Below, piece after piece: positions 27,381 through 37,954 of a stretch of 64,000 bases of DNA. Each line of letters opens with the position of its first letter. Position 1 is the stretch's first letter. Both the position numbers and the translations under genes were made by a program. Below the pieces are notes generated by a model, which did no database searches, had not been told where the DNA came from, and worked only from the letters and a program-made list of their open reading frames with translations. The stretch comes from an uncultured Bacilli bacterium (GTDB taxonomy: Bacteria > Bacillota_I > Bacilli_A > RF39 > UBA660): positions 62,001 through 126,000 of the forward strand of contig CALVQK010000001.1 of assembly GCA_944358305.1 (NCBI GenBank), written 5' to 3'.

Positions 27381-28367
27381 ATGAATGAATTTGGTGATAT
27401 AATTATTTATAAAGATAAAAATGGAAAAGATAATATTGAAGTAAAGATAGAAGATGGTACTGTTTGGTTAAATCAAGCACAGTTAGTAAAATTATATAAT
27501 TCTAGTAAATCTAATATTTCAGAGCATATAAAGCATATATACGAAGAAGGTGAGCTAGAGGAAAAATCAACTGTTCGGAAATTCCGAACAGTTGCTATAA
27601 ATGGTAAGACATATGATATGAAGTATTATAATCTTGATATGATAGTTGCTATAGGTTTTAGAGTTAGATCTGACATTGGAACTAATTTTAGAAAATGGGC
27701 AAATGATAAATTAAAAGAATATATGATTAAAGGATTTGTACTTAATGATGAAAAATTAAAGAATAATGGTGAAAGTCCTTACTTTGAAGAATTGCTTGCT
27801 AGAATTCGTGATATTAGATCATCAGAAAAGGTTTTTTGGAGAAAAGTATTAGATATATATGCAACGGCCGTTGATTATGATCCTAAAGATAAGATATCAA
27901 TAGAATTTTTTAAGACTGTTCAAAATAAAATGCATTATGCTACACATGGACATACTGCAGCAGAAATAATTTTTGATAGGGTTGATTCTTTAAAAGAAAA
28001 TTTAGGACTTACTAATTTTAAAGGAGATTATCCAACAAAAAGTGAAACAGAAATTGCTAAAAATTATTTAACTGAAGAAGAATTAAATATTTTAAATAGA
28101 ATGGTTTCTGCATACTTAGATGTAGCAGAGATCAATGCTTTAGATAGGCACCCAATGACAATGAAAGATTGGGTAAATGAGCTTGATTCATTTTTAAAGA
28201 TGACTAGGAAGGATATTTTAAAAGGGCAAGGTACTATATCTCATGAGAAAGCATTAAAAAAAGCTCATGAAGAGTATGATAAGTATATGCAAAAACATTT
28301 AACTACTGCTGAACAAGATTATTTAGAAGTGTTGAATAAAGAAATAGAAGAAATTAATAAGCAATGA
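27381..28367 (+). CDS. rhuM: RhuM-family protein
   Basis: 328 residues, soluble. Strong family marks: VWLNQAQLVKLYNSSKSNIS (predicted helix-turn-helix), TVRKFRTVAINGKTYDMKYY, then NLDMIVAIGFRVRS and FRKWANDKLKEYMIKGFVLND. RhuM proteins occur in accessory DNA and Salmonella pathogenicity island 3, and their molecular role is not established; a DNA-binding or toxin-like function is often supposed. The gene has its own promoter and sits on the edge of the SANT-repeat island. Inside it, 27568-27594 is a 27-base palindrome. Confidence 0.9.
   Translation: MNEFGDIIIYKDKNGKDNIEVKIEDGTVWLNQAQLVKLYNSSKSNISEHIKHIYEEGELEEKSTVRKFRTVAINGKTYDMKYYNLDMIVAIGFRVRSDIGTNFRKWANDKLKEYMIKGFVLNDEKLKNNGESPYFEELLARIRDIRSSEKVFWRKVLDIYATAVDYDPKDKISIEFFKTVQNKMHYATHGHTAAEIIFDRVDSLKENLGLTNFKGDYPTKSETEIAKNYLTEEELNILNRMVSAYLDVAEINALDRHPMTMKDWVNELDSFLKMTRKDILKGQGTISHEKALKKAHEEYDKYMQKHLTTAEQDYLEVLNKEIEEINKQ
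27568..27594. repeat. 27-bp perfect palindrome within rhuM
   Basis: CAACTGTTCGGAA, one central A, TTCCGAACAGTTG: a 13-bp inverted repeat with one-base centre, in the coding segment for the conserved VRKFRTV motif. Confidence 0.85.
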
Positions 28368-28503: not shown

Positions 28504-28562
28504 AAACTAAAATAAGTAAATATTTTTAATGTAACTATAAGAAGTTTGGGGGGTGAGTAAAG

Positions 28563-30638
28563 ATGAATCAAAGAAATTGGACAGAAGCAGAGGATGAATA
28601 TATAAAAAATAATATTGAAAATAAAACTTTTAGCGAGATGGCAAAATATATTGGGTGTGCAATTAATACAGTTCAAAATAGAGCGATAGTTTTAGGCTTT
28701 GACGTTCAAAAGAAAACAAGAAGAAGCTGGACGGAAGAAGAAATAGAATTATTAAAAATAATGTCCTCAAGATATTTAAACAAAACTATAGCAAGAAAAT
28801 TAAATCGTTCTATCAGTGAAGTGAATAAAAAAGCTCGGAAATTAGGAATTAATTTAATTTTTAAAAGACCAGTATGGAAAAAATGGAAAGTAAAGTTTTT
28901 GAAAGAGAATATTAATACACTATCCTTATTACAAATTCAAAAAGAATTAGAAGTTGATTACTATCAGATTATGGATAAACTTGATGAACTAGGTATTAAA
29001 TATAATAGTAATCGTTGGACTGATGAAGAAGAAAAAATTTTAACTGAATTATCCAGTAAAGTATATATAAGAGAACTTGCTAAAATTTTAAATAGAACTG
29101 AAGCAGCTATTATATCTAAAGCAAGTAAAATGGGATTAGACTATATTACTTTAAAAAAAGTTTATACTGAGGAAGAATTAGAATATATAAAAGATAATTG
29201 GGGTATAGTTTCGGTCAATGACATTGCAAGGAATTTAGGTGTGAGTAGAATAATGATTCAAACTCAAGCAGATAAAATGGGACTACCAAAATTAGATAAA
29301 AATCCTCCGAAAAAATGGACTGAAGATGAATTGATAAAATTAAGAAAAATGGCCAGTAAGAAATCTATTACTGAATTAGCAAAATATTTTAAAACAACAA
29401 ATACTGCAATTATAACTGTGGCACATAAAAATAGTATATATTTAAATGATGATAAAATTCATTGGACTGATGAGGATAATGAACTTTTAAGAGAATTAGC
29501 TAAGACTATGGATTTATCAGAAATAGCTGAAAAAATGAATAGAAGTCAATCTGCTATTCGTATCCAAGCTAAAAGACAAAATATTAAAATTATTCCAAAT
29601 AAAAAAAGTGTTGAAAGTGTATGGACAGAAGAGAATAGTAAAGAATTATTAATGCTAGCTAACCAAGGAAAAACGTTATTGGAAATATGTCAGATAATGA
29701 ATAAAAAAGATTTTACAGTATTAAAAAAAGCTAGAGAATTACAACTAGATATAAAAAAAGAGAATACTAAAGAGTGGTCTTTAGATGAAATAGATAGGTT
29801 AAAAGAGTTATCTAAAACTAAAAAGTTAAGTGAGTTAGTAAAAGAATTAAATCGCTCAAGTGCTTCAATTACAGCAAAGGCTAAAAAGTTAGGAATTACT
29901 TTGATAAGCGATAGAAAAAAATGGACTGAAGAGGAGTATCAGCTCCTTGAAAAACTGGTTATGTCTGATAAGAAAACTCCTAAAGAAATAGCAGAGATAC
30001 TTGGAAGAACTGAAGATGCAATTATTATTAAAATAAATAGAAGAGGACTGCAAGTTCAAACAAATGATAAAAGATTTTGGACAAAGGAAGAAGAAACATT
30101 ATTATCAGATTTGTGGGGTACAGAGTCACTCGAAACAATTGCAAAGAAATTAAATAGAACTGTATCTTCAATTAAAAATAAAGCTTTTCTTTTAGGACTT
30201 GGTTCTTTTAAAGAAAATAATTATAATGGTTTAACGATTAAAGAAATTAGTGATTTGTTTAATGTAAATATAGATATAGTAAGTGTTAGTTGGATTGGCT
30301 TAGGACTTAAATATAAAGTTCAAAAGATTTCAAAAGCAAAAAGTTATAGATATGTAGAAATAAAAGATTTATATGAATTTTTAGAAACAAACCAAAATAT
30401 ATGGGACAGTAGAAATTTAGAAAAAAATATTTTAGGTTATGAACCTGAATGGTTAAAGCAAAAAAGAAAGTTAGATAAAGAACAAAATTCTAATATAGAA
30501 CAATTAAATTTAACAAAACAGCAGTTAATACTTGCTAGAAAATTCTTTTTAGAATTACAGGAAGAGAAAAAAGAACCAGAGGGGGAATCCACCTTCGAGT
30601 CTGGGCCACAATTATCTTTAAAAATTGAAAAAAGGTGA
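28563..30638 (+). CDS. Tandem SANT/Myb/GcrA-like repeat protein (11 repeats)
   Basis: 691 residues built from eleven tandem three-helix DNA-binding-like repeats, each about 50 residues with a leading W-T-x-E-E motif and a closing I-x-x-K-A-x-x-LGI helix. Leading aromatics are at 6, 56, 105 (degenerate), 152, 201 (Tyr), 252, 301, 354, 405, 454 and 506. Each repeat matches the pattern of Myb/SANT and GcrA N-terminal domains (IAxxLxRSxxAIxxKAxxLG). A different helix-turn-helix (LTIKEISDLFNVN, about 557-585) and a phage-type tail (NQNIWDSRNLEKNILGYEPE, then WLKQKRKLD, 611-638) follow. GGGGGGTGAG precedes the ATG. First gene of a three-gene operon ending in a sigma factor. DNA binding is inferred; function is unknown. 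Confidence 0.85.
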   Translation: MNQRNWTEAEDEYIKNNIENKTFSEMAKYIGCAINTVQNRAIVLGFDVQKKTRRSWTEEEIELLKIMSSRYLNKTIARKLNRSISEVNKKARKLGINLIFKRPVWKKWKVKFLKENINTLSLLQIQKELEVDYYQIMDKLDELGIKYNSNRWTDEEEKILTELSSKVYIRELAKILNRTEAAIISKASKMGLDYITLKKVYTEEELEYIKDNWGIVSVNDIARNLGVSRIMIQTQADKMGLPKLDKNPPKKWTEDELIKLRKMASKKSITELAKYFKTTNTAIITVAHKNSIYLNDDKIHWTDEDNELLRELAKTMDLSEIAEKMNRSQSAIRIQAKRQNIKIIPNKKSVESVWTEENSKELLMLANQGKTLLEICQIMNKKDFTVLKKARELQLDIKKENTKEWSLDEIDRLKELSKTKKLSELVKELNRSSASITAKAKKLGITLISDRKKWTEEEYQLLEKLVMSDKKTPKEIAEILGRTEDAIIIKINRRGLQVQTNDKRFWTKEEETLLSDLWGTESLETIAKKLNRTVSSIKNKAFLLGLGSFKENNYNGLTIKEISDLFNVNIDIVSVSWIGLGLKYKVQKISKAKSYRYVEIKDLYEFLETNQNIWDSRNLEKNILGYEPEWLKQKRKLDKEQNSNIEQLNLTKQQLILARKFFLELQEEKKEPEGESTFESGPQLSLKIEKR

Positions 30639-30644
30639 GAAAAT

Positions 30645-31694
30645 ATGCCAGGAAAAAAGTATGAATTTACAGAAGAACAAATTAAATATATTCTTGATAA
30701 TTGGGGTAAAGAGTCACCACATAGTATGAAAAATAAGTTTGGATGTACATGGTATGCTGTTTGTAAAGTAGCAGAGTCTCATGGATTAGAAATTCCTAAG
30801 TCAAATGCTTGGACTGAAGAGGAGATAAAAGCATTGAAAGAACTAGCTGATAAATATCATTATACAGAAATTGCTAAAATAATGGGAAAAACAGAGAATG
30901 CTATTTATTTAAAAGCTAGAAAATTAGGAATAACTTTAATTCAAGATAGAAGGAAATGGACAGTTGAAGAAGAAACACTTTTATCAGATTTATGGGGAGT
31001 TAAATCAATAGAATATATTGCCAAAAAAATGAAAAGAACAGTTTTCTCAATAAAAGTAAAAGCTGTAAGAATGGAATTAGGACCAATGATTAGAAATAAT
31101 TATGATGTAATTACAATTTCTGATATGGTTGACCTATTAAATGTTACTCGTGATAGAATTATAGATAGTTGGGTTAAATTAGGATTAAAACTAAAGAAAG
31201 CAAAATTAACAAATAAAATGTCCTATTATACTATAAGTTGGAAAGATTTAATGGATTTTTTAGAGAATAATCAAAATGAATGGGATTCAAGAAATGTAGA
31301 AAAAAATATGTTAGGTATAGAGCCAGATTGGTTGCAGGAAAAAAGGAAACGTGATACTATAGAAAATCCATTATGGTATCGTAAATGGACAGAAGATGAG
31401 ATAAAGAAAGCTGAGTCATTATTTAAAAATGGTAAAACTTATCAAGAAATTAGTAGTATAATAGATAGAAGTGAATGGGCTGTTGCAAATCTCCTTAGAA
31501 ATCTTGGATATAGTTATATGCTTCCACAATATTGGAAAGGTAAAGAGATAAAGTATTTAAGAGAAAATTATCAAGATATGACATATCAAGAAATTGCTGA
31601 AGAGCTGGGAAGAACAACAAAAGCGATAAGCGCTAAAGCTGAAGAATTGGGATTCCAAAAGAAACTAATCAGAACTAAAAAGGAAGGAAAATAA
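30645..31694 (+). CDS. Second SANT/Myb/GcrA-like repeat protein (5 repeats)
   Basis: 349 residues. Repeats start near residues 8 (degenerate, FTEEQIKYI), 56, 105, 248 and 297 (WKGKEIKYL). Between repeats 3 and 4 lie the same helix-turn-helix (ITISDMVDLLNVTRD, 156-183) and phage-type tail (NEWDSRNVEKNMLGIEPDWL, 211-230) as in the first protein. Residues 105-237 align with residues 506-638 of that protein (for example EEETLLSDLWG in both), so the two share a duplicated core with repeats added in front or behind. It starts six bases after the first gene, and the sigma factor gene begins one base after its stop. Confidence 0.83.
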   Translation: MPGKKYEFTEEQIKYILDNWGKESPHSMKNKFGCTWYAVCKVAESHGLEIPKSNAWTEEEIKALKELADKYHYTEIAKIMGKTENAIYLKARKLGITLIQDRRKWTVEEETLLSDLWGVKSIEYIAKKMKRTVFSIKVKAVRMELGPMIRNNYDVITISDMVDLLNVTRDRIIDSWVKLGLKLKKAKLTNKMSYYTISWKDLMDFLENNQNEWDSRNVEKNMLGIEPDWLQEKRKRDTIENPLWYRKWTEDEIKKAESLFKNGKTYQEISSIIDRSEWAVANLLRNLGYSYMLPQYWKGKEIKYLRENYQDMTYQEIAEELGRTTKAISAKAEELGFQKKLIRTKKEGK

Positions 31695-31695
31695 A

Positions 31696-32343
31696 ATGGC
31701 AAGACTTTTGACTTTAGATGAAACAGAAAAGTATTTAAAATTATATAGAGAGTTTGCTGATGAAGATGCTTTAACTTTGTTAGTTACTTGTAATGGCGGT
31801 TTAGTTGGCTTTTTTGCAAAAAAGTATCTAGGAAAAGGATTAACTTTTGATGAATTAGTTTCAGCAGGAAATGAAGGATTAATAAAGGCTATTAATAAAT
31901 TTGATTATGAAGAACGAGAGATACAAGGTTTTAGAGCTTATATTTCTGTAGCAATAGATAATGCGATGAAATATGAGTTAAGAAAATACAATAAACATAG
32001 TCATGTGTTAAGTTTTGAACAACCATTAGGGCAAAATAAGGATGGTGATGAACTTACTATTGAAGATATTGTAGGAACTGATGCTGAAGAATTAATAGAA
32101 GATGTTATTTCTGAAATGAAAATTGATATAGTTAGGGAAGCTTTAAAAAGTTTAACATCAAGGGAACAACAAATAATTTTTTTAAGGTATGGATTAGATG
32201 ATGTTCATAGAAAAACTCAAGCAGAAGTTGCAGAAATATTTGATTGTTCTACACATACTATTGCAAAACAAGAACAAAAAGCATTAGTTAAAATGAGACA
32301 TCCGAGAAATACAAGAAAATTAAAAGATTTTATAGAGGAATAA
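31696..32343 (+). CDS. Sigma-70-family RNA polymerase sigma factor
   Basis: 215 residues with region 2 (LTFDELVSAGNEGLIKAINK, then FDYEERE and FRAYISVAIDNAMKYELRK) and region 4 (LTSREQQIIFLRYGLDD with helix-turn-helix AEVAEIFDCSTHTIAKQEQK). A short region 3-like linker (LSFEQPLGQNKDGDELTIED) joins them; region 1.1 is absent. It is larger than most ECF factors and is closest in form to sporulation- or phage-type group 3 sigma factors. Ribosome site AAGGAA. Co-transcribed with the two SANT-repeat genes, so it may direct polymerase to promoters those proteins bind, or transcribe the island itself; both are inferences. Confidence 0.88.
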   Translation: MARLLTLDETEKYLKLYREFADEDALTLLVTCNGGLVGFFAKKYLGKGLTFDELVSAGNEGLIKAINKFDYEEREIQGFRAYISVAIDNAMKYELRKYNKHSHVLSFEQPLGQNKDGDELTIEDIVGTDAEELIEDVISEMKIDIVREALKSLTSREQQIIFLRYGLDDVHRKTQAEVAEIFDCSTHTIAKQEQKALVKMRHPRNTRKLKDFIEE

Positions 32344-36036: not shown

Positions 36037-36094
36037 GATTGTTATAATATCTATATTGTGTTAAAATTTAAATAGAAGATACGAGGTGTTTATA

Positions 36095-37954
36095 ATGAAA
36101 GAGGCATTAAAAAATAATAAGAAGTTTATTATTATAGGCATTTTTATAATTATATTATTAATAATAGGAATAGCATTTGCCTATCTAACAACAACATTAC
36201 AAGGAGACAAAGAATATGTTGTAAGAGCAGGAACCCTTGATTTAGTGTTGGATGAAGGAAATGAACTAACTTTAGAAAAACAAATACCTTTAGAAGATTC
36301 TGAAGGTATGAAACTAGATGGCTTTAATTTTAGTCTAGTAAATAATGGAAAGATAGATACAGATTATACAATTTACTTGGATGATATGGAGTTAAGTGAA
36401 GGAGAAAGTAGAATACCAGACTCTAGTATAAGGTATAGTCTAACAAGAAATGATGAAACATTTATGGCTAGGAATATGACAACCATGGGAAGTAATCCTA
36501 ATAGAAGAGTAGATTTTGGAACAATAACACCAGATGAAACAATAAACTACACCTTAAAAATCTGGATAGATTATGATACAACAACTGAAGAAGCAAGTGG
36601 TAAAGTATTTAAAGGAAAGTTAAGAGTAGTAGCAACTCAACCAGTAGGAGAAGAAGCAAGTACATTATTACTTGAAAATATACCTGAGTCTAATCAATAT
36701 GATGATGGAACAGATACATTTATAACAGGAGAAGATCCTAATAATTACATTTGGTATTCTGGTAAATTATGGAGAGCAGTATCTGTTAATAATGAAGCAA
36801 AGACAGTTAAATTAGTAACCCAATGGAATATAAGTACTATTTCTTATAATACAAGTGGTAATACATCTTTTGCAGGAAGTTATATGGAAGAGTGGCTAAA
36901 TGATACAACAGTAGATGGTTTCCTAGGTAATTTAAGAAATTATGAAAACTTTATAGTAACAGATGCAGTATGGGATGCAACAGAAGATAATAGAGGATTA
37001 GGCAGTATAGCAAGACCAAGTGGAACAACAATAGTAACAGATACAGTTGGACTTTTAAATATGTATGAATATCAAACAAGTAGTGGTGTAAACGTTTCAC
37101 AATATACTAATAGTTATTTAAACAACGGACTTTATTGGTGGAGTTTAACCCCATATAGCACATCTAGTGTATGGAATATAGGACGCAATGGTAGTAGTGA
37201 GAATAGTCGCAGTCCTTTAGATTCACTTGGCGTTCGTCCATCCATAAATCTTAAATCTACTGTAAAGATAGTATCAGGAAGCGGAACAGAGGATGATCCA
37301 TATAGATTAATGGGAGATAGTGATGAAGAATTATCAGGAACTTTGTTAAATACAAGATATAGCGGAGAATATGTAAGATTTGGAAATGAAGAGAATAACC
37401 TATATAGAATAGTAAGCCATGAAAATAAAACAGGTACAAAGATAACCAGCGATGGTTCCTTAAAAAGTAATGACAGTTTTATATCAATTGCATTAGGGAA
37501 CTTAAATTATTCAAGTACCACAATAATGGGGACATTTTTAAATGGAGAATATTTAACAAGTTATGTGGATAGCATATATAGTGACATGATAGAAGATAAT
37601 ACAGCTTGGTATTTAGGAACAGTAGCAAGTGGCATGAGTTATAAATTAGCAAAATATAAAGATACTAATATGTCAGGTTATTCCACAACAATTGATGCTA
37701 AGGTAGGCTTACTTCGATATGGAGAATTAATGGCAGGACAATTTGATAGCTATGAAAATAATACGGTTTATTGGCTATTAACCCCATCCAATGCTTCTAA
37801 CGTTTGGAACATCAGCACTGGTAGCGGTTACGTACCTAGTATTAGTCCTTCAGACTCATCTGGAGTACGACCTTCTCTCAACCTAAAATCTAACGTGCGA
37901 ATTACATCTGGGACAGGTACGAAAGAAGATCCATTTATAATTGCTTTATCATAG
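36095..37954 (+). CDS. SipW-type secreted protein with two C-type-lectin-like (DUF6273-like) repeats
   Basis: 619 residues. N-terminal signal segment IIIGIFIIILLIIGIAFAYL followed by TTT and RAGTLDLVLDEG is the SipW-dependent pattern of TasA/camelysin-type proteins; residues 30-185 form a beta-rich camelysin-like domain. Two homologous domains follow (about 205-410 and 415-619), each ending in an aromatic YWW/YWL, LTP, a variable stretch, then GVRPSxNLKS. That ending resembles the C-type-lectin fold of surface adhesins and diversity-generating retroelement targets. ATG 36095 fits the GAGGTG ribosome site better than GTG 36086. A lipoprotein gene follows 16 bases later. Confidence 0.75.
   Translation: MKEALKNNKKFIIIGIFIIILLIIGIAFAYLTTTLQGDKEYVVRAGTLDLVLDEGNELTLEKQIPLEDSEGMKLDGFNFSLVNNGKIDTDYTIYLDDMELSEGESRIPDSSIRYSLTRNDETFMARNMTTMGSNPNRRVDFGTITPDETINYTLKIWIDYDTTTEEASGKVFKGKLRVVATQPVGEEASTLLLENIPESNQYDDGTDTFITGEDPNNYIWYSGKLWRAVSVNNEAKTVKLVTQWNISTISYNTSGNTSFAGSYMEEWLNDTTVDGFLGNLRNYENFIVTDAVWDATEDNRGLGSIARPSGTTIVTDTVGLLNMYEYQTSSGVNVSQYTNSYLNNGLYWWSLTPYSTSSVWNIGRNGSSENSRSPLDSLGVRPSINLKSTVKIVSGSGTEDDPYRLMGDSDEELSGTLLNTRYSGEYVRFGNEENNLYRIVSHENKTGTKITSDGSLKSNDSFISIALGNLNYSSTTIMGTFLNGEYLTSYVDSIYSDMIEDNTAWYLGTVASGMSYKLAKYKDTNMSGYSTTIDAKVGLLRYGELMAGQFDSYENNTVYWLLTPSNASNVWNISTGSGYVPSISPSDSSGVRPSLNLKSNVRITSGTGTKEDPFIIALS

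Follow-up and report, generated by a model that had tools for sequence, protein, structure and literature searches.

Introduction

During sigma appropriation by MotA and AsiA in phage T4, an activator box stands in for the -35 element (PMC7403470), and in T4 late transcription with gp55 and gp33 the part of -35 recognition is likewise taken by an activator or co-activator bound to DNA (PMC2988020). Other described systems that come close to the locus reported here are GcrA, the sigma70 cofactor of Caulobacter, the PHROG_323 D5-like phage transcriptional regulators, the sporulation sigma factors SigE and SigK, and the tandem Myb proteins Reb1, SNAPc and c-Myb.

The locus comes from a genome of RF39, which like RFN20 is an uncultured order (PMC10868615); in gene content, too, the genome is like these orders. 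It lies in a stretch of 64,000 nucleotides, hereafter the window, and holds genes for two proteins built of Myb/SANT-like repeats together with one for a sigma-70 family factor. In the SANT, Myb and phage sigma literature that we searched, such a system is not described.

Results

Organization of the window operon

The three open reading frames of the operon all lie on the + strand, as do the ribosome-binding stretch and the RhuM-family gene given below, with gaps of 6 bases between genes A and C and of 1 base between gene C and the sigma gene. Gene A (28563..30638) encodes a 691-aa product in which 11 Myb/SANT-like three-helix repeats with a spacing of ~49-50 aa (28578..30209, aa 6-549) are followed by a winged HTH and a conserved tail (30219..30482) with the motif WDSRNLEKNILG.EP.WL..KR..D. 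Gene C (30645..31694, 349 aa) has, in this order, repeats 1-3 (30666..31088, aa 8-148), a winged HTH with tail (31107..31364, aa 155-240) and repeats 4-5 (31386..31664, aa 248-340). The sigma gene, SIGs (31696..32343), encodes a 215-aa sigma-70 family protein with regions 2 and 4. An earlier note on this DNA had described an 11-repeat protein, a 5-repeat paralogue and a sigma-70 factor with these same gaps, and the positions of the ORFs and the repeat counts bear it out. A G-rich ribosome-binding stretch lies 5′ of gene A (28546..28557), and the neighbour in the same variable slot is a RhuM-family gene (27381..28367; PADLOC candidate PDC-S05). Compared with the complete four-gene operon of relatives, A(11)-B(13)-C(5)-sigma, the window operon is reduced, B being the gene that is missing. 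Elsewhere in the window, a 622-aa protein (36086-37954) has two halves that are alike, with the pattern YW.LTP…GVRPS.NLKS… occurring twice, and gave no Pfam match.

Fold and residue conservation of the repeats

The repeats, of ~49-50 residues each, were counted both from their motif and with a profile made from the repeats themselves, and start at residues 6, 56, 105, 152, 201, 252, 301, 354, 405, 454 and 506 of A (n=11) and at residues 8, 56, 105, 248 and 297 of C (n=5). Profile searches of the 691-aa A protein gave a match to Pfam Myb_DNA-binding of 44 bits (E 2.5e-11) against a cut-off of 24.4, and PHROG_323 matched both A (E 2.4e-96, 8 stretches) and C (E 1.5e-46), the match spanning the SANT repeats and the HTH. 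AlphaFold2 models predicted three helices in a Myb/SANT fold for every repeat of A and C, and a winged HTH followed by the conserved tail in both proteins, which are 52% identical across their common repeat-HTH-tail stretch. Mean pLDDT of the two models was 78.5 and 70.1, with a low pTM, so that the relative placement of domains is not to be read off. The repeats combine three helices, a leading Trp and a recognition helix, in keeping with their Myb/SANT likeness, and the HTH and tail that the two proteins had been said to share are confirmed.

In Foldseek searches of the PDB, the top match of both models was Reb1-Ter, with SNAPc among the top few. For repeat 4 of C, VIA-align returned the GcrA DNA-binding domain as the top structure (rmsd 0.9-1.4 A) with a Z of 8.2-8.4, by the tool's own warning a middling value where the domain is small and helical. 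The likeness to GcrA previously suggested for the repeats holds for the fold of a single repeat and fails for the sigma-interacting part. Pfam GcrA aligns over positions 2-68 of 155 only, without the C-terminal sigma2-interacting domain, and NCBIfam GcrA, whose cut-off is 280 bits, scored 13.8-14.3. Judged by profiles and predicted folds, SIGs belongs to the sigma-70 family, and the array proteins are Myb/SANT repeat proteins with PHROG_323 as a relative; a place among GcrA proteins is not supported.

Repeat positions 29, 30, 33, 34 and 37 point outward from the third helix and, by analogy with Myb recognition helices in general, are taken to be DNA-facing. Across 28 repeat consensus sequences they showed the lowest between-repeat identity (mean 0.093; p 3e-5 vs. 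all positions and 0.002 vs. other variable positions). Such diversity is the pattern expected, though not proof, if each repeat reads its own bases. Among orthologues the identity at these positions (0.62) does not exceed that at other variable ones (0.67), and specificity for the site therefore seems to drift too. The third helix is the best-conserved element in gene C (0.80 vs. 0.70-0.71), which is not so in gene A.

The sigma factor

SIGs matched Pfam Sigma70_r2 with 40.2 bits and Sigma70_r4 with 43.8 bits, both exceeding the cut-off, and a profile search of the 215-aa protein found no region 3. Its region 2 is similar to that of SigE/SigK and its region 4 has an RpoD-like C-terminal tail. 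With two more distant sigma genes it forms a clade of its own, separate from SigE, SigK, SigF/SigG and RpoD. Assignment as a SigE/SigK equivalog was rejected on this separate clade, on the scores (SigK subfamily 136 bits vs. a cut-off of 252; SigE 129 vs. 339) and on the lack of a conserved -35-reading helix. Likewise, MzaA of the MZA system was rejected at 76 bits vs. 800, the partial profile match covering the general sigma domain only.

The -35-reading helix of SIGs (32245..32274, aa 184-193) differs strongly in conservation from the end of the protein. Residues aligned to R584, E585, R588 and Q589 of sigma70, which would be those that read the -35 box, showed identities of 0.26, 0.19, 0.32 and 0.33 in 16 orthologues. 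The corresponding SIGs aa 186, 187, 190 and 191 are among the least conserved, with 0.71 for the whole protein. In a control set of 31 SigE orthologues, mostly close relatives though extending to 56% identity, the equivalent residues had an identity of 1.00. The same value was found for the core of the C-terminal tail of SIGs, KMRHPRNTRKLKDFI (32290..32334, aa 199-213), which is nearly invariant among the 16 orthologues (KMRHPRNT.KLKDF; KMRHPRNTRKLKDF). Given the drifting SIGs helix, the invariant SigE helix and the near-invariant SIGs tail, region 4 of SIGs seems to have lost the constraint of -35 reading and to have retained a surface, most simply read as one for contact with polymerase and a partner protein.

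The window genome also encodes RpoD, SigE with SpoIIGA, SigK, SigG and a SigF-like factor; SpoIIGA adjoins SigE (L206:1647-3134) and the other three lie elsewhere, so that a genome of 1.36 Mb holds a set of sporulation sigma factors. We also observed two very large proteins, of 1174 aa (L199:6449-9973, of the same genome but beyond the window) and 1554 aa (L198:2038-6702), that start as a complete RpoD-like sigma and go on into a long tail. In addition, L204 encodes a SigK-like protein of 460 aa, and several more RpoD-like paralogues were seen in genomes of relatives of ~1 Mb.

Operon forms across relatives

Array genes are distributed patchily, occurring in 16 of 386 family genomes spread over 15 of 150 genera; the named relatives are mostly metagenome-assembled genomes, many of them from gut samples by record title. 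Typical products are ~690 aa with 11 repeats for A, ~786 aa with 13 repeats for B, which is usual in the operon outside the window copy, and ~350 aa with 5 repeats for C. The complete A-B-C-sigma form was found in three related gut Bacilli (L075/L112, L076/L114, L107). Other loci have A-C-sigma (the window and L128, with a frameshifted C in L128), B-C-sigma (L071/L105, L072/L108), A-B-sigma (L085) or C-sigma (L038/L104, L106, L109, L110, L111, L113, L120, L123). The partner is SIGs in 16 loci, while sigma factors of separate clades accompany C-A-B in L079/L121 and A-B in L086, both with RpoD-like paralogues that differ from the housekeeping RpoD, and C in L125, with another sigma. Sigma-free loci are L115, L116, L117, L118, L119, L122, L124, L126, L127, L084, L087 (A alone) and L172 (a pseudogene).

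An adjacent sigma factor is thus present in 19 of the 31 classifiable loci and absent from 12, a count that leaves out the contig-end A fragments L088 and L089. At 10 of the 15 loci for which it was measured, the C gene shares 8-23 bases with the sigma gene; L125, with its different sigma, is one of the ten. Co-occurrence of arrays and sigma across the 386 genomes gave p 1.6e-9 in a Fisher test, which ignores phylogeny and operon linkage, genes of one operon not being independent. SIGs genes without arrays were seen in L133 and L134 (the latter frameshifted), and no array-gene remnants were found flanking either of them. As L108 retains a vestige of A 5′ of B, the simplest history would be an A-B-C-sigma ancestor followed by losses; the tree of C requires four changes of the SIGs label.

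Lateral transfer and recombination

In another genome of the genus (G030), C and sigma are found at a different site with a DNA identity of 93%, the homology beginning 13 bases 5′ of C. At fourfold-degenerate sites, C+sigma of the window genome and G030 are 80% identical vs. 61% for neighbouring core genes (p 1.3e-5), the natural reading of which would be recent lateral transfer of C+sigma within the genus. No integrase adjoining the operon genes was seen. Patchy and laterally transferred, the locus behaves as a mobile accessory cassette, in agreement with the mobile-element character that the earlier note had thought possible. The arrays are reshaped by repeat-driven exchange: over 496 bases at their 3′ ends, A and B of L085 share 86.7% identity (vs. 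~80-83% with orthologues), and in L105 the initial 378 bases of B match A.

Discussion

Proposed mechanism

We consider it somewhat probable that the arrays take the place of -35 recognition by binding DNA upstream and docking on region 4 of a dedicated sigma. The operon would then be a laterally moving transcription cassette, of which A (11 modules), B (13, absent in the window) and C (5) would be sequence-specific DNA binders with one recognition helix per module. Sitting upstream of a small set of promoters, the arrays would recruit RNA polymerase carrying the dedicated sigma, probably by contact with the conserved region-4 tail. Their binding would substitute for the -35 element, and region 2 of the sigma would read and melt the -10 region. 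Direct support exists for the order and linkage of the genes, the predicted fold, the number of repeats, residue conservation, lateral transfer and A/B recombination, and from them we infer DNA binding, array-sigma contact, promoter selection and target genes. Sigma adjacency in 19 of 31 loci, the C/sigma overlap, the several sigma clades, the co-occurrence, the sigma-like gene that also adjoins relatives in Pelosinus and Anaerosolibacter, the Myb folds and the diverse DNA-facing positions all argue for the model, as does the low identity of the SIGs -35 helix vs. 1.00 in the tail core and in SigE. The unconstrained upstream-reading helix of SIGs suggests that strings of modules choose its target genes.

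If this is true, promoter choice moves from the sigma factor to the repeat array, a design that we did not find in the literature searched, and the operon would provide modular DNA-binding repeats of a new class, along with a compact system for testing how sigma factors acquire obligate activators. A more far-reaching version appears doubtful to us, namely a modular system in which up to 13 Myb units with their own DNA-facing residues, shuffled by recombination, would recognise sites of great length and pass the promoter on to a -35-blind dedicated sigma, so that shuffling would create new regulons.

Alternative explanations

The closest relatives outside the family were found in phages and Priestia plasmids. 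On pNCT2_1 the relative gene comes after genes for replication and plasmid stabilisation. A Priestia megaterium plasmid relative with four SANT repeats and an HTH (L039:5827-6720) also follows replication/stabilisation genes, and the plasmid relatives of this species are sometimes annotated as sigma-70 factor. Relatives in Pelosinus, whose contig is also among the listed viral contigs, and in Anaerosolibacter adjoin a weakly scoring sigma-like gene, which makes a phage origin of the array-sigma pairing plausible. In clostridial phage-like loci (L129:4931-6087, L130:4614-6705) a sigma-like gene lies directly 5′ of a SANT-HTH-tail protein, 3′ of which L130 has two further short ORFs with the same domains. 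Scanning viral contigs with C gave zero matches, and with the clostridial relatives five loci. A neighbouring sigma is lacking in most of the phage and plasmid relatives, and this, with the 12 sigma-free array loci and the two array-free SIGs genes, counts against the array-sigma model. The earlier note had staked the pairing on homologues not normally occurring without the sigma, and the sigma-free loci and relatives go part of the way towards refuting it; its array-sigma link stands as a recurrent one, with the sigma frequent and not obligatory.

These relatives bear on an explanation that we regard as unlikely, in which the arrays would be phage-derived DNA binders with a main role other than activation (maintaining or partitioning DNA, or acting as a roadblock, in the manner of centromere-binding proteins or of Reb1, a terminator protein with tandem Myb modules) and the sigma would have been picked up with the same phage-derived region. 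The phage and plasmid setting, above all the gene order on pNCT2_1, the Reb1-Ter match and the existence of sigma-free loci speak for it. However, several kinds of sigma accompany the arrays, the genes overlap, and in the contexts examined no obvious partition ATPase stands beside solitary chromosomal copies, except in L083, with ParA/ParB-like genes ~6 kb off.

The DNA upstream of the operons is relevant to both the array-sigma model and a second alternative. A site resembling a TGnTATAATA promoter lies ~50 bases upstream in several relatives, with no clear counterpart in the window, and ordinary sigma-A-type promoters seem to be present at several operons. An alignment of eight operon upstream regions contained no long common operator, only the TGnTATAATA-like site and a G-rich ribosome-binding stretch, and no repeated element was found when the upstream region of the window operon was compared with its own genome. 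The missing operator and the apparent sigma-A-type promoters weigh against the array-sigma model, and so does the possibility that a drifting -35 helix means an own -35 motif for each sigma, the site specificity of the arrays drifting as well. Such changing motifs would fit arrays that are autorepressors or anti-sigma-like holders, with the sigma reading its own promoters through lineage-specific -35 motifs. Sigma/anti-sigma pairs are typically co-transcribed in one operon, and co-transcription of this operon would agree with that. Yet A and B, with 11-13 DNA-binding modules, differ from known anti-sigma folds, and an autorepressor sits poorly with the failure to find an upstream operator conserved across operons; we hold this explanation to be distinctly unlikely.

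Between the prepilin peptidase gene and mtaB lies a variable slot, comprising 64 bases in L224 and RhuM pieces or other genes elsewhere, and the RhuM-family gene (PDC-S05) is intact in the window and fragmented in relatives. That the operon belongs to an anti-phage or inter-element conflict island, its sigma and arrays sensing or hijacking phage promoters, would suit the presence of RhuM/PDC-S05 in this slot, the lateral transfer and the phage ancestry of C, but is highly improbable, as the operon is without an effector gene, RhuM was not seen beside other operon copies examined and the MzaA match is to the general sigma domain only.

Comparison with known systems

We compare the locus with described systems under the array-sigma model. 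The PHROG_323 D5-like regulators and the SANT-HTH proteins of Bacillota phages and plasmids are alike in SANT repeats, winged HTH and EPxW tail; those examined have 2-5 repeats only and are mostly without an adjacent sigma. GcrA resembles one C repeat in the fold of its DNA-binding domain, and the proposed model in its sigma partnership, but has one module vs. 5-13 here, where the partner is a dedicated alternative sigma and the phylum is different; recognition of m6A-methylated promoters is a further trait of GcrA. SigE and SigK share region 2 and the general layout with SIGs and provide its best NCBIfam models, whereas SIGs scores far under their cut-offs, has an RpoD-like region-4 tail and falls in a separate clade. 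Tandem Myb modules are also found in Reb1, the SNAPc large subunit and c-Myb, which are eukaryotic, have far fewer repeats and work with no sigma factor. With MotA/AsiA and gp55/gp33 the likeness is an analogy of mechanism only: the proteins are unrelated, and T4 remodels the host sigma70 or splits the sigma.
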